From a virus: DNA of 21,711 nucleotides. A model generated the notes under the pieces. The model worked only from the letters and a program-made list of their open reading frames with translations. It ran no database searches and had not been told where the DNA came from. The translations under genes were made by a program, and so were the position numbers. The stretch spans positions 1 to 21,711 of IMG/VR virus record IMGVR_UViG_3300030118_004540; one strand, written 5' to 3'. Positions 2,135 to 18,900 of the stretch are shown here, one piece after another (position 1 is the stretch's first letter; each line of letters begins with the position of its first letter).

Positions 2135-3331
2135 ATGTCATTTGATAATTTTTTTGAAGAAGTAAAAGAAGAATTTAATTACGAAGAGAAGAAAAAAGAA
2201 TTTATAGATAATTTGGATATGTTGAAATCTATGTCAGTTCAAGAACAAACACTTTATAAAAAGTGGCAAGAGTTCAATAAGAATCCTGACTTTCAAAAAT
2301 ATGCTTATAAGTTTGATTTATTCTCTCAGAAAATTTGGAAACCAACAGATATAAATAATTTAGAATTAACAATATCTGAAATAGAAAATCTCGACCCTTA
2401 CGTTGAAATTGTAGACAACAAGAATCAACAATCAGTTGAGAATTGGACACTTCTTAGAAGACTTATTCATTCAATGGAATATGTTGCTAATCCAGGTAGA
2501 AACATTAAAGTAATTGCTAAAGATAGAAATACAAATAAAGTTTTAGGTATGATGTCTTTAGGTTCAGATATTACATCACTTGGTGTTAGAGATGATTACA
2601 TTGGTTGGACTAAAGATAATAAATTCAAAGATGGTAAATTGAGATGTACAAGTATTGGAACATCCATTGTAGCAACTCAACCATTTGGATATAACTTTCT
2701 TGGTGGTAAGTTAGTCGCTATGTTACTAACCGATGAATCTCTCAGACAACATTGGAAAAAAACTTATGGTGATGAATTAGTTGGATTAACCACTACAGCA
2801 TTGTATGGTGTTCATTCAATGTATAATGGAATCCCTTTATGGAAAACTCTCGGTGAATCTGCTGGTAAGATTGCATTGAAGCCTGATGATTCAGTTTACA
2901 AACCGTGGCTTGATTGGATGAAAGATGAAAGAGCAGATGACTATAAAAGAATTATGACACCAAAGGAAGGTGTATCAGGTCCTCCTACTGGAGTTAAACA
3001 ATCATTAATAAATTATATGTTTGGTGAATTGGGAATTGTTAAATCACATTACAATCACGGATTTAAACGAGGAGTTTATTTCAGTTCATTTTATGAAAAC
3101 GGAAGAGAGTTTTTAAGAAATGAAATCAATGCTGATGAATTAATAATGAGACCAAAGTTTGCTCAAGGTTCTGAATACATTAATAAATGGTGGAAAAGAA
3201 AAGCAATAAAAAGATATACCAAGTTACATACAGAGAATAGATTAAAGCCTGAGATACTTTATTACTCAGACATATTGAATATGACTTGGGATGAATGTAA
3301 AGAAAAATATTTAGGAGAAGTGGGTAGATAG
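2135..3331 (+). CDS. DruA-like (DUF4338-type) protein
   Basis: 398 residues. After a charged helical N-terminus (about 1-70), the central part carries a block resembling the DUF4338/DruA family: 'LGSDITSLGVRDDYIGW' (about 142-158), then 'YNFLGGKLVAMLL' (186-198), 'YGDELVGLTTTALYG' (211-225) and 'GIPLWKTLGESAGK' (232-245). DruA is a component of the bacterial Druantia anti-phage system. Free-standing relatives occur in large phages, where the job is unknown. The alternation of a short strand, a hydrophobic helix and an 'LR..W...YG' segment could fit a GNAT-like fold, but I cannot show this. The C-terminal 100 residues are basic and may bind nucleic acid. The final G of its stop codon is the first base of the next gene's GTG start. 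G+C over nt 2641-2880 is 36% by my count, higher than the two genes that follow. The family call is from recalled sequence pattern and is moderate in confidence. Confidence 0.55.
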   Translation: MSFDNFFEEVKEEFNYEEKKKEFIDNLDMLKSMSVQEQTLYKKWQEFNKNPDFQKYAYKFDLFSQKIWKPTDINNLELTISEIENLDPYVEIVDNKNQQSVENWTLLRRLIHSMEYVANPGRNIKVIAKDRNTNKVLGMMSLGSDITSLGVRDDYIGWTKDNKFKDGKLRCTSIGTSIVATQPFGYNFLGGKLVAMLLTDESLRQHWKKTYGDELVGLTTTALYGVHSMYNGIPLWKTLGESAGKIALKPDDSVYKPWLDWMKDERADDYKRIMTPKEGVSGPPTGVKQSLINYMFGELGIVKSHYNHGFKRGVYFSSFYENGREFLRNEINADELIMRPKFAQGSEYINKWWKRKAIKRYTKLHTENRLKPEILYYSDILNMTWDECKEKYLGEVGR

Positions 3332-3813
3332 TGGCCATATCCGATTCAACTATATTAGGAAAAAGTTTAAATAATGATTATCACGATAATCAAGAAGCGT
3401 TTGAACAATATGATTTTGACGTAGATAAATTACAATACGTTTGTCATAATTTTGATTGCCCCTCTATTGAAAAATACAAAAATAAATACAAAATAAATGA
3501 CGACATGTCAGTTGAAGACTTTATAAAAATAATTAAAAATCATTATAATGAATTAACTTATATTGGTACTGAAAACGCTCATTTAGTAGCCACAAGTATT
3601 TGTAAAAATGATAAGAAAAATTGGGACGATAAAAAAAATCAAAAAGACAATGGTATATTTTTATGTCCAAATTGTCACAAAGCATATGATAGAAATGGTG
3701 GCAATTTTAATAATATAGAAAACGCACAATATGAGTGGTTAAAAAAAATGAAAAGTATCTTAACTTCAAAACAAAAAATAAAAGATTTTATGGAGGTTAA
3801 TAGTGAAAATTAA
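3331..3813 (+). CDS. HNH-type endonuclease-like zinc protein
   Basis: 160 residues beginning with GTG. Visible features fit an HNH nuclease: C38 and C43 as a possible first metal pair, 'ENAHLVA' with H84 as the first catalytic histidine, N107 in 'DNGIFLCPNCH', then C112, C115 and H116, and D120 after the second pair. HNH enzymes nick or cut DNA and in T4-like phages are often free-standing homing endonucleases. The GTG overlaps the previous stop by one base, AGGAG lies 13 bases upstream (long spacing), and no other start occurs before residue 59. Over nt 3481-3720 I count 57 G+C in 240 bases (24%), against 36% in the upstream gene, which suggests recent acquisition. The downstream partner starts inside its last 11 bases. 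Confidence 0.65.
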   Translation: MAISDSTILGKSLNNDYHDNQEAFEQYDFDVDKLQYVCHNFDCPSIEKYKNKYKINDDMSVEDFIKIIKNHYNELTYIGTENAHLVATSICKNDKKNWDDKKNQKDNGIFLCPNCHKAYDRNGGNFNNIENAQYEWLKKMKSILTSKQKIKDFMEVNSEN

Positions 3814-4702
3814 TAGTATAACAAATTGGTTTGAAACTTTTAATCCAAAAAAGAAACCACCAAAAAACTCTAAAAAAAATGTATTAGAACACAATAAATT
3901 TGTATTACGTCCCGAAGATTTATTTGGAGATAATGGTTCTTTAGAAAAAATAATTACATCATTAAGTAATAAAATGGATGAATTTAGAATCCATGAGGGT
4001 TTTAAAGAGGGTTGGTGGTTAAATTCTGAAACCAAACGTAGTTCAATGTATAAACCTGAGGGCATTATTTCAAACGATTCTGCTACAAAAATACTAAATT
4101 CTTATTTACACATGGAAGACGTTAATCCAAATACTAATTGCATTTCATCTGGAGATAAAAAGGGAACAGAATTGAAGGGTGGTATCATACCAAGAAATTA
4201 TAAAAGGGCTGCTAGAAAAATTATTCATGATTGTAAATTAAAATCAGAGTGTGACAAATGTGGTGAATCTGAAGTCTTACCAAATATTAAATTTTTTAAA
4301 AAATTAGGTTTAATGTTAGCTGAATGTAATTTATTAAAAATACCAGCTGTTATATTTTTACACCCACAAAACCTTTTACAACTTTGTCCTAATTGTGAAA
4401 AATTCTATAATAAAATGAATACAAAATTATTTCAACAAGGTAACCTACCATCTCACGAGATGAGAAGAATTAAAGAATGGGTAAATTCAGGACTACCTAT
4501 TCCTAAAGCTAGATTAAAAAATAATAATATTACTGAATTGAAAAATTTTGATGGTAAAATTATTTTTAATTCAACCACTCCAGGACTAAGCTTTGTGAAA
4601 AGAGTTAATGAAATGTATGCTGAAAATTGGAAAAAAATAGGAATAGAAGAAGATATGTTTAAATCTCATAAAAAATTCAAATCAGCGTTGGAGACTAAAT
4701 GA
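3803..4702 (+). CDS. zinc-binding protein with degenerate HNH-like centre
   Basis: 299 residues, GTG start overlapping the preceding gene by 11 bases, with GGAGG at 3792-3796 six bases upstream, so translation is probably coupled. The N-terminal half (1-110) is Lys/Asn-rich and unrecognised. The middle holds C150 and C153 ('CDKCGE') and C195 and C198 ('LCPNCEKFYNK'), a four-cysteine zinc site, with H187 and N190 between them. This is the layout of an HNH domain, but the final position after 'CPNC', histidine in the upstream gene, is E199 here. It may be a catalytically altered nuclease, a DNA-binding partner of the upstream HNH protein, or only a structural zinc protein. G+C over nt 4201-4440 is 59/240 (25%), matching its partner and not the flanks. 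It ends in an ATGA overlap with the glycosyltransferase gene. Confidence 0.55.
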   Translation: MKINSITNWFETFNPKKKPPKNSKKNVLEHNKFVLRPEDLFGDNGSLEKIITSLSNKMDEFRIHEGFKEGWWLNSETKRSSMYKPEGIISNDSATKILNSYLHMEDVNPNTNCISSGDKKGTELKGGIIPRNYKRAARKIIHDCKLKSECDKCGESEVLPNIKFFKKLGLMLAECNLLKIPAVIFLHPQNLLQLCPNCEKFYNKMNTKLFQQGNLPSHEMRRIKEWVNSGLPIPKARLKNNNITELKNFDGKIIFNSTTPGLSFVKRVNEMYAENWKKIGIEEDMFKSHKKFKSALETK

Positions 4703-14337: not shown

Positions 14338-15942
14338 ATGGTAAATGAAAATTTAGAAAGACTATTAGATTTAGTAGCTGAGGCATTAATAATCAGTCCT
14401 TTAGTTCAGACTCCTCAAGACGTTGAAAAAAATCAAACCTTTATAAGGAATGGGTTGTTACAAAAAGGAACTGGAGAAGGTGTTTTAGCTCTTTTTCAAC
14501 GAGAAATAAAAGCTAATCAAGAAGATTTACAGATAACATATGAAGACGAAGAATCTGGAGAAATTTTATCAGAACTTGAATACATATCTACTTTACTTGA
14601 TTTTGAATTATACAGTTATACTGTTGATGTTACTTTAGATGAAAATAGTCAATATCAAATTAATTTAAATACAAATCAAGAATTACCTGATGAGTACACT
14701 AACCTCACTAAGTATGTACAACAAGGAGATGAGTTTTCTCAAAATCCCTTAAATGTAAGTCAGTTCATATCATTACAACAATCTTCATCGGTTGTCAATG
14801 TTGAACAAGCTGAAGAATTTTTAGACACAAATATATTTGAATTATTACCAGATGGGGATGCTAGACAAGCTAGAATTGTTAGATTCTTTCAAGAACTAAA
14901 TGCGTTATTACCTCCTGCGCCAGGTGAGAATGGACAACCACCATTTGATTTTCCAGATGATGATGATGATAGAGTTAATAGAGATGAAAATTTTAACTGG
15001 GTATCTGCTAGTTTATATGACCAAAACACAAGTATATCATATGCTCAAGATAATCAAGATGGAAACATCGATGAAGAAGATGCCTTTATACATAGATTAA
15101 AATCAACAGCCAATGACACAAATCAATCATTAACTATTGAAGATATTTATAATACCATTGAACCATATTTAACTGACATTTTAGAACCACAAACTGAATT
15201 ACAAGATGATAGACCAGAGTATACAAATAAATCTAGTGGTTATTTACAATTTAGAAATTTAAATCAAGGCATTATAATTCGTAATACTAATCAAGATTTT
15301 ATTGAGGGATTAAACCCAAATAATCCAACTTATTTAAACACGGATGGAACTGGTGGATTTACAATTACAATGTGGGTTAGATTTTTAGATAAAGTATCAG
15401 AGGGTACATTGTTTAACTTTGGAAATCCGGTAAGAGATGAAAATCCATTTGGTTTTAAATTAGAAACTTTAATAAATCCTGATGACAAGGAAAGGTATGC
15501 TCGTCTTTTATTATGGAATGGTAATCGATATTATGATTCACATCTTGGAATTAATGGTGTTGATAAAGTGTTTACTAACACGTTGGATTCACTTAATGAT
15601 ATACAATATCAACAATGGGTAAATATACCTCAAGACTTTAATGAATGGTATTTTATATGTGCTTCATATAATCCATTAGTCAATGAAACTTTTGGATTTG
15701 ATAATCAACAATTACCAGCTAATCAAGAACAAGTACAACAAGGTTTACCATTTGGAGATGGAGAACAAGGACAAACGGAACAAACTATAATTATACCAGA
15801 CACCTTACAAGAGCCTAATTTTTGGTTAAATCATATTGACCAAAATGCTTTGTATACAAATTATTCAGGATTTGGAAACCAATGTAAAGTTGAAATCATT
15901 TCAAGAACAGATTTACTACGAGCTCGTGGTTTTAAAATATAG
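14338..15942 (+). CDS. virion protein with LamG/concanavalin-like lectin domain
   Basis: 534 residues. The N-terminal 200 residues are acidic and largely helical and not recognised. A short Asp run (DDDDD, about 206-211) and a Gln/Asn-rich stretch lead to a LamG-like jelly roll at about 315-450, recognised by 'GGFTITMWVRFLDKVSEGTLFNFG' split over 337-361 and 'WYFICASYNP' at about 438-447. The protein ends in 'KVEIISRTDLLRARGFKI', a tail pattern I associate with lectin-bearing proteins of marine phages. Such domains bind sugars or proteins on cell surfaces, so a part in host recognition or baseplate decoration is likely. AGAGGA lies about ten bases before the ATG. A second in-frame ATG does not occur nearby, so the start is secure. 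Confidence 0.6.
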   Translation: MVNENLERLLDLVAEALIISPLVQTPQDVEKNQTFIRNGLLQKGTGEGVLALFQREIKANQEDLQITYEDEESGEILSELEYISTLLDFELYSYTVDVTLDENSQYQINLNTNQELPDEYTNLTKYVQQGDEFSQNPLNVSQFISLQQSSSVVNVEQAEEFLDTNIFELLPDGDARQARIVRFFQELNALLPPAPGENGQPPFDFPDDDDDRVNRDENFNWVSASLYDQNTSISYAQDNQDGNIDEEDAFIHRLKSTANDTNQSLTIEDIYNTIEPYLTDILEPQTELQDDRPEYTNKSSGYLQFRNLNQGIIIRNTNQDFIEGLNPNNPTYLNTDGTGGFTITMWVRFLDKVSEGTLFNFGNPVRDENPFGFKLETLINPDDKERYARLLLWNGNRYYDSHLGINGVDKVFTNTLDSLNDIQYQQWVNIPQDFNEWYFICASYNPLVNETFGFDNQQLPANQEQVQQGLPFGDGEQGQTEQTIIIPDTLQEPNFWLNHIDQNALYTNYSGFGNQCKVEIISRTDLLRARGFKI

Positions 15943-15951
15943 GTTTGAATA

Positions 15952-18900
15952 ATGGCTATTAATACCGAACAACCCATTGTAACTCAAAGAGTAAAAGGAA
16001 CTGGCAGAAGATTTTCCAAATACATTCCCCTTGACAATTTATCTTGTCAATATTATCGAGATATAGAAATAGGTGATACTACACCAAACGGGCACGTTGT
16101 CAGTCAAAAAGATATTGATGATGGAACTTATACACAACTTGGTTTTAATTGTGCATCAACTGATGTTTATTGGATGCAAGATGAAGTTAAATTTCAAGAG
16201 GTGTTTACTGATAATCCATTGTTCGGTATTGGTGATTATGAATATGATGATAGTGGTGATATGGTATTTTCTGAACCACCTGGTTGGCTTTGTACCACCC
16301 CATGTTGGATTAATGGAATGGGTGAGTGTTTTGATTGTCCTAGTGGAGGTGGGGGAACTGGACCTGGTGGAGGGACTGGAACTGGTGGGGGAACTGGTGG
16401 TACTGACCCTTATCCCACTCCTGGTTGTACCAACCAATACGCTGAGAATTTTAATCCATTGGCTACTCATGATGATGGTTCATGTACCTATTCGGAAGAT
16501 GTTCAAGACCGTATTCAACCAAACGGAATAGCACAAGCAGTTGAAAAATGTTGTAATGCTGGTACGGCTCATAGAGATACAGATTTAACAGAACAGGGAA
16601 ATGATGAAAACTATGGTTCATATCATGCGTGCAATCGAATAGATTGTGGTGCTAGTGAAGAAGACCCTTATAATACCATACCTAATGGTAATAATTTTCC
16701 ATTTGCATATGTTCATCAAGAACTTCAATGTGTATATCCTTTAGGTACAATTGAAGTTAATGGTACTGAACTTATTCAAGGTAACCATAACATTGTTTGG
16801 AATTACTATGAAAAAAATGCATCTTTAGCTAGTCCCTCTAGTGGCCCTCCTACTGAGCAGATGCGACACTATCCATATTTTAATAGGAACACATTCGCAG
16901 ATTCAGACGTAGAGGGTAAAATGTACTATAGTCTTCCACCTGTTGATGCAGAAGATAGTTATTTCAATAGGCCCTTTACTGATTCTGTTGAAAATGCAAG
17001 AATAGACAAACGTCAAAAAGGAATTACTAAAGATGGTGATGTACTTTATGATTTACCAACTTATGTTTCTAATACTTGTGAAGACCTTCAACAGAGTGGG
17101 GCAGACAATCCATATTTAGCGGTGGTTAGAAATCCTATCTTTAACATTTATGGTACACAAATAGGACCTCAAAATGGAAATGATAGAGGTATTGTAGTTT
17201 GTACAACTGAAAATAATGATTTATTTAATGAATTTTTTAATAATCCAACTCTTCTATCATACGTTTCAGAATTTTTTTCTACAATTACTAATGATAAAAT
17301 ACGAGATTTTACTGGTAATATAGTTACGGATGCTCCAAGTTCACAATTTGGTTATGGATTTGGATATTTTGATGATGAAGCGATTGAAGAAGTAAGAAAT
17401 GGTACTGCGCCATTTCTCACACCACCCGCATCAGGTGTAATGTTAAAAGAAGTATTGTATAGATTAGGTATTCCAGAGCCACCTTTAGTAATAGGATATG
17501 AAAGTGATAGTGGAATACCTGGTCATGAACAAGAGTGTTATGATAACCAAGTAGATCAAAAATATAGTTTATTACTTGATGAATTTAAAGTATTTTTAGA
17601 AATTGGAACTTTCTTTGCTGATTTTGGTATTCCTAATGTAGACATAGTGCCAACAATGAATGGGACATTAGATGTTTTTTCAGCTAGAGATTTAAGGGAA
17701 GAAAAACTTAATGCGTGTGATTATGTTGAATTTATGACTTTACCAGGAGGAAGTACAGATGGTGATGGAATTTATTATCAAGGAAATGAATTAGATACTG
17801 AAGATACTTATTTATTAAATTTTGATTGTAATACAGAATTTAATCAAAACATTAGTGGTTATAGTAGAATGAGAGCAGTTTGTAAAGATGGTTCAAGTGT
17901 TTTAATAGCCGGTACTGGAAATAATGATAACTCGGTATTAAATTATGATAATGCTGATAAGAGATTTAACACAGGTAGAGACGCTTGTAATTCAAAACTA
18001 AAACCATATAGTAATCAAGATTTATATTATTTAGCTGATGGTGATTTAAGAGAATCACTTGGTATTAATTTTTTTGAAAGTGAAAACACAGAAAACATTA
18101 CAAATAATTTTACTGGTAATTTAACTGGTGAAGAATTTGAACAAATACAACTTCCTAATTTATTATTAAATGGTGATGGTAGATTGGTTAGGCCTAATAT
18201 AAGTTGGTTATCAAATGAGTTTAGTTCGGATGAAAATGTTTTTGATGGTGTACCTTACATACCTGAAAATTGGGCACCAATACAACGTAAAGTAGGTAAC
18301 TCAATTACATTGAGAGCATTGGAAGAAAGACCATTTACGGATGGTGATTATGAAACTTACAATTTTCAATATACTGGTATGTTACCTTATTGGAGTTCAA
18401 ATAATGGTCAATGTTTTTCTGAACAAAAATGTTTAATAATAGATACCATGAATCCGTCAACTTATGATATAAGTAGTGATACAAAACAATTTTTTGAAAG
18501 TGGTAAATGGGATATTAGGCAAGCGATGACAACATGGATTCCAACAAAAAATATTTCTTTGGATTCATTAAGAAAAAATTCACAATACAAAGTTTCTTTT
18601 ATGATGAAAACAGTTGATATAAAAGATGATGTTGATTTAAAAGATACTGGTATTCATGTAAGCGCTGTTTTTGGAAATGAAACTCGAGACTGGATTAATC
18701 AAACTACTGTTGGTGCATCTCCAGATGTTAACATGAGAAACTTTAATCTTAGAGCCTCTGGAAAAAATGCCGATGAAGATAACAATGAATGGCCAATTGT
18801 TAAATTTTCTAATTCACAATGTTCACCAAACTCACATAATGAAGAACATTATTCAGAACGTTTAACGAATGATGACTATTGTAAAAAATCAAAAGCTAGT

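Follow-up and report, generated by a model that had tools for sequence, protein, structure and literature searches.

The locus analysed here raises the question of what a protein of the DruA family, known from the bacterial Druantia defence system, does in a phage. The window, meaning the whole stretch of DNA under study, is a virus record of 21,711 bases; apart from the gene in question it reads as a fragment of a marine T4-like phage, with a PhoH-like ATPase (recognized by eye), baseplate and virion genes, and an open reading frame that weakly matches a late sigma factor. The DruA-like gene starts with an ATG codon; the gene and the conserved segments of its product are as follows:

2135–3331, plus strand: DruA-like (PF14236) protein of 398 residues with a predicted GNAT fold (open reading frame, Pfam, PADLOC and PHROG matches, AlphaFold2 model)
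2495–2608, plus strand: first conserved block, GR...LG...SD......RDxYIGW, residues 121–158, with G138, R152 and G157 invariant
2666–2728, plus strand: strand and helix with QPxGxNxLGGKL, residues 178–198, with P183, G190, G191, K192 and L193 invariant (n = 52)
2792–2827, plus strand: TTxLYGxxSxYN, residues 220–231, with T220, T221, G225 and Y230 invariant (n = 52)
3320–3328, plus strand: C-terminal tripeptide VGR, residues 396–398, the very end of the protein

Family membership and predicted fold

The assignment to the DruA/DUF4338 family, already made in the first-pass annotation, was borne out by profile searches: Pfam DruA (PF14236) matched residues 84–328 with an E value of 6.6e-22 (score 78.4 bits, curated cut-off 27; model positions 46–296 of 297), and PADLOC DruA matched at 5.1e-19. 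The Pfam alignment spans the interval of residues 130–260 where such a match had been expected, and the three peptides on which the annotation had drawn lie at residues 144–158, 187–198, and 234–245. The protein also matched phrog_19197, a PHROG family without function, at 1.3e-32, and shares 33% identity with a protein of Pelagibacter phage Mosig, whose record annotates its own copy as DUF4338; an NCBIfam scan returned only noise under the cut-offs, and a sequence search of the PDB gave no match.

An AlphaFold2 model, computed from 52 aligned sequences (the window protein plus sequences from IMG/VR and, in small number, GTDB contigs), reached a pLDDT of 93.6 and a pTM of 0.88. Nearly all of the top 50 Foldseek matches in the PDB were GNAT or other acyltransferases, each of them weak when taken singly (best E value 0.011; probability up to 0.99), and DUF4338 has been independently assigned to the GNAT superfamily (PMC10853773). 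The DruA-like protein is thus predicted to have a GNAT-type fold, in agreement with the literature; to this extent the earlier expectation of a DruA-compatible fold holds, no solved DruA structure having been found for a direct comparison. The fold is also compatible with a GNAT enzyme acting on RNA or a small molecule in phage physiology, for example in tRNA or rRNA modification, and a tRNA(Met) cytidine acetyltransferase appeared among the PDB matches, weakly, at an E value of 0.073; yet the most conserved clusters of the gene neighbourhood reveal no connection with genes for tRNAs or ribosomes, and we consider this reading quite improbable.

The alignment of 52 sequences contains 14 invariant columns, including R152, P183, G190, G191, K192, L193, T220, T221, G225, and Y230; when Druantia-type and short DruA-like proteins (see below) are compared together with those of phages, the invariant residues are G138, R152, G157, K192, A195, Y211, T220, and G240. 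In the model, the segment with QPxGxNxLGGKL comprises a strand (residues 172–180) and a subsequent helix (residues 190–197); it likely occupies the position of GNAT motif A and would be the probable acyl-donor site. The classical Q/RxxGxG/A acyl-CoA motif does not occur in its standard form; the equivalent position, QPFGYNFLGGKL, keeps the glycines with a non-classical spacing. The TTxLYGxxSxYN strand with its following tyrosine likely forms the active-site side. Both Druantia-type DruA proteins used for comparison retain LGGKL and SxYN. The final residue is arginine in 175 of the 181 complete phage relatives (VGR, IGR or IIR), an ending that Druantia-type DruA lacks.

Distribution, selection and phylogeny

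Relatives occur in 31 isolate or single-virus records (Pelagibacter phages Mosig and HTVC008M, many Synechococcus phages and two marine virus records) and in at least 596 IMG/VR stretches; the metagenomic contigs are almost all fragments. DruA-like proteins have been described in six Synechococcus phages (PMC12774648). The initial description of the gene as a lone copy calls for correction: the gene is widespread and conserved in phages, a second paralogue is present in some of them, and public phage records already annotate relatives. The second paralogue adjoins the first copy, or nearly so, in L051 (6142–7224), L072 (3598–4677), L093 and L095, and in L072 the DruA-like copies are separated by two Mom genes. 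Submitters have labelled the copy of S-SCSM2R (L084) as "methylcarbamoylase mom", which points to a Mom-like annotation transfer, and that of S-CREM1 (L088) as "iron-binding protein". A record titled Thermoplasmata archaeon bin33 (L108; a contig of 5.2 Mb labelled as an archaeal chromosome) encodes a DruA-like protein closest to the cyanophage copies and is possibly mis-binned.

Purifying selection on the gene is strong, with dN/dS ratios of 0.036–0.045 against relatives at 97–98% identity and of 0.11–0.27 against more distant ones; together with the wide spread, this identifies the DruA-like gene as a conserved phage gene and not a stray defence gene. In a maximum-likelihood tree, rooted at its midpoint only, the phage sequences including the window protein form one clade (support 99/93), within which some MAG contigs also fall that may themselves be phage; the two Druantia-type DruA proteins group with other bacterial members in a second clade (100/98), to which the window protein does not belong.

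Among the roles proposed at first pass, that of an enzyme fits best, given the intact conserved residues, the strong purifying selection and the separate phage clade; a counter-defence decoy and a superinfection-exclusion factor both went unsupported, the gene being conserved across the sampled lineages and often placed in a replisome operon, and no Druantia partners having been found in the window. A decoy would mimic DruA and poison the Druantia system of the host; DruA homology is all that speaks for it, against an intact conserved core, a dN/dS of 0.04 and a clade distinct from Druantia-type DruA at 21% identity. This least likely of the rival explanations, to which we give only a very slight probability, was rejected on core conservation and dN/dS.

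Replication genes, downstream cargo and Mom

The gene neighbourhoods were derived with a simple ORF caller, so that small genes and exact starts are uncertain, and gene names in the clusters of the clamp lineage were given by eye from the sequences. In this marine lineage, the genes typically follow one another as polymerase gp43, clamp gp45, DruA-like gene, and clamp loader gp44; of the 80 contigs that encode a related sliding clamp, 78 have the DruA-like gene at the clamp or immediately after it, and the remaining two end there. Cyanophages have the gene between gp44 and gp62, according to their record annotations, and pelagiphages have it downstream of recombination endonuclease genes. In the window's own lineage a gene for a glycosyltransferase or an HD-domain protein comes after the DruA-like gene, and the sliding clamp is not adjacent within the sequenced stretch. 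The DruA-like gene is thus part of the replisome operon in two phage lineages other than that of the window.

In the window's lineage, extra genes directly follow the DruA-like gene, ahead of the glycosyltransferase or HD-domain gene, in 27 of 53 loci; the other 26 have none. The window carries two such genes:

3331–3813, plus strand: HNH_2 nuclease-like open reading frame (PF13391 at 3.8e-6, above the cut-off)
3803–4702, plus strand: second cargo open reading frame of 299 residues with CxxC/CPNC pairs, an HNH-like zinc site by eye only

The GTG start of the HNH reading frame overlaps the stop codon of the DruA-like gene. The HNH_2 reading frame did not turn up near the gene in the relatives retrieved, whose slot holds unrelated cargo or is empty, and a role as conserved partner of the DruA-like protein was rejected on these grounds. 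The 299-residue product had no Pfam, PHROG or PADLOC match and is a singleton in clustering. Elsewhere, the cargo consists of D12 adenine methyltransferases (L025, L027, L038), N6/N4 adenine methyltransferases (L033 by profile, and L036, which clusters with L033), ResIII (L036), Mom (L021 and one L072 gene by Pfam; L066 and a second L072 gene by phmmer with the Mom protein of phage Mu), and nucleases of the EndoVII-type HNH (L021, L066), GmrSD-HNH (L066) and HNH (L029) kinds. The slot just 3' of the DruA-like gene is therefore a hotspot for adenine methyltransferases, Mom and nucleases. Cargo between the DruA-like and glycosyltransferase genes was seen in the window (3331–4702), in L007–L038 and in L065–L067. 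Several of the cargo proteins, of 366–617 residues, had no convincing Pfam or PADLOC match, and the uncharacterised ones as a group matched almost no defence models in PADLOC.

This cargo invites the explanation that the DruA-like protein belongs to a phage-borne weapon that acts on competing phages by superinfection exclusion or restriction, marking self DNA or triggering an attack in which the neighbouring nuclease cuts. Such a role would suit a family known from Druantia and the 27 of 53 loci with downstream cargo, several of them encoding nucleases or methyltransferases, the window's HNH reading frame included; Mom-restriction enzyme fusions of jumbo phages have been interpreted in this way (PMC7824862). 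Yet 26 of the 53 loci lack cargo, the cargo is unrelated among phages while the DruA-like gene is constant, the cyanophage copies in replisome operons have no such cargo, and the Druantia type I partners DruB–DruE were not found among the window's scanned reading frames (on a contig that is a fragment, with both gene flanks covered). On balance we regard a weapon as distinctly unlikely.

Genes for Mom (PF25680), which is also a GNAT enzyme (PMC7824862), were found on 26 of 50 metagenomic contigs with the DruA-like gene, often as tandem pairs; the Mom of phage Mu matched 284 of 50,697 phage records, in a search of a different type from that behind the contig count. Mom adjoins the DruA-like gene in L021, L066 and L072, and is present in 18 of the 19 clamp-lineage contigs with enough upstream sequence. 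None of the seven DruA-like-carrying isolate genomes encodes Mom, so that any partnership is not obligatory and Mom as a constant companion was rejected; the co-occurrence largely represents shared descent. In a control based on the window's baseplate gene, Mom was found on one of 30 contigs (a carrier of the DruA-like gene) and the DruA-like gene on five, which are among the contigs extending furthest upstream; most of the 30 end before the DruA-like position. The sole Mom carrier of this control, the L444 contig, has a DruA-like gene apparently broken into two reading frames (15813–16458).

At the protein level, PF25680 did not match the window protein, and a direct comparison of the DruA-like and Mom profiles (hhalign) found nothing significant. 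A family of short DruA-like proteins of approximately 250 residues (e.g., L153, 7749–8501, and L151, 3537–4283; relatives L273–L301) shares contigs with full-length DruA-like proteins and was matched on 29 viral contigs in one scan. The two short proteins scanned matched PF14236 at 6.9e-22 and 1.4e-20, and PHROG Mom matched one of them at 2.9e-4. A profile of the short family (alignment A5) matched phage DruA-like proteins at 1.5e-19 and reached Mom with an E value of 1.9e-7 and a probability of 94%; with smaller first alignments the Mom match was weaker (E value 4e-4, 35%). The structural model of the short family, of moderate quality (pLDDT 76), gave Foldseek matches to DruA-like and N-acetyltransferase proteins. 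A chain of GNAT families leading from DruA through short DruA to Mom would be the natural reading of these profile matches, with its Mom step drawn from one kind of comparison.

The same evidence bears on the possibility that the DruA-like protein acetylates a protein of the replisome or the host, such as the sliding clamp or RNA polymerase, and thereby controls replication or host takeover. The predicted GNAT fold and the clamp and clamp loader as direct neighbours are in keeping with a protein acyltransferase, and host RNA polymerase is modified by other phage GNATs (PMC7824862); however, the window's lineage has no clamp beside the gene in the sequenced stretch, the cargo next to the gene consists of DNA modifiers and nucleases, and the profile bridge points to Mom, which leaves a protein substrate unlikely.

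A putative DNA-modifying enzyme and its known counterparts

Because of its GNAT fold, its link to Mom and its DNA-modification neighbourhood, the DruA-like protein is best explained as a putative DNA-modifying GNAT enzyme used in phage replication, a reading that we hold at about even probability. The enzyme would act at the replication fork or close to it, transferring an acyl or aminoacyl group onto bases of the phage DNA, and the modified DNA would be protected from restriction enzymes; for the DruA-like protein we infer the DNA substrate, the acyl or aminoacyl donor and the protection from restriction. More speculatively, and with a fairly low probability, DruA-like and Mom-like GNATs could form a joint, replication-coupled hypermodification system of abundant marine T4-like phages, in which the interchangeable nucleases and methyltransferases of the cargo slot would read the mark and discriminate self from competing DNA; bacterial Druantia type I would have recruited its DruA from an enzyme of this sort. 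The link between DruA and Mom through the short proteins, together with the genome context, leads from a protein of unexplained role to a prediction that can be put to the test, that of an unknown base modification in the DNA of common marine phages, some of them cultured; it also suggests a shared biochemical origin for a component of bacterial defence and a house-keeping enzyme of phages. The extent of the phage clade, the replisome-operon position, the co-localisation with Mom and the bridging family appear to be new, as do the hotspot of cargo genes and the arginine signature at the C terminus, as judged from open-access literature, so that earlier reports may exist; the open-access literature searched likewise offered no explanation of what DruA does within Druantia type I.

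The Druantia-type DruA proteins of plasmids pNWAT01 and pKF715A belong to the same Pfam family (PF14236/DUF4338) and have the common core GR...G...R(D)...LGGKL...T...SxYN...G, whereas the phage proteins form a separate clade at about 21% identity and end in VGR where Druantia-type DruA has a longer tail. The Synechococcus phage proteins (phrog_19197; S-PRM1; PMC12774648) and the DUF4338 protein of Pelagibacter phage Mosig fall into the same phage clade as the window protein and differ in position, between gp44 and gp62 in cyanophages and after recombination genes in pelagiphages, in contrast to the window's lineage, where the gene borders on a cargo slot. A GNAT (DUF4338) domain is fused to some DndF proteins of bacterial DNA-modification and defence loci (PMC10853773); this is the same Pfam family, attached there to the DndF core and here a stand-alone phage protein. 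Foldseek matches among viral models (BFVD) extend to giant-virus proteins, namely A0A3G4ZXG3 of Faunusvirus (E value 5e-20), A0A5K0UAJ3 of Yasminevirus (5e-16) and A0A3G4ZRA1 of Dasosvirus (3e-9), which span 469–1260 residues; two of these matches are part of proteins of more than 1,100 residues. Finally, the Mom protein of phage Mu (PF25680), which carries out adenine momylation, differs from the window protein in that the latter has no Mom profile match, yet both belong to the GNAT superfamily, and their families appear to be linked through the short DruA-like family and are often encoded on the same contig.
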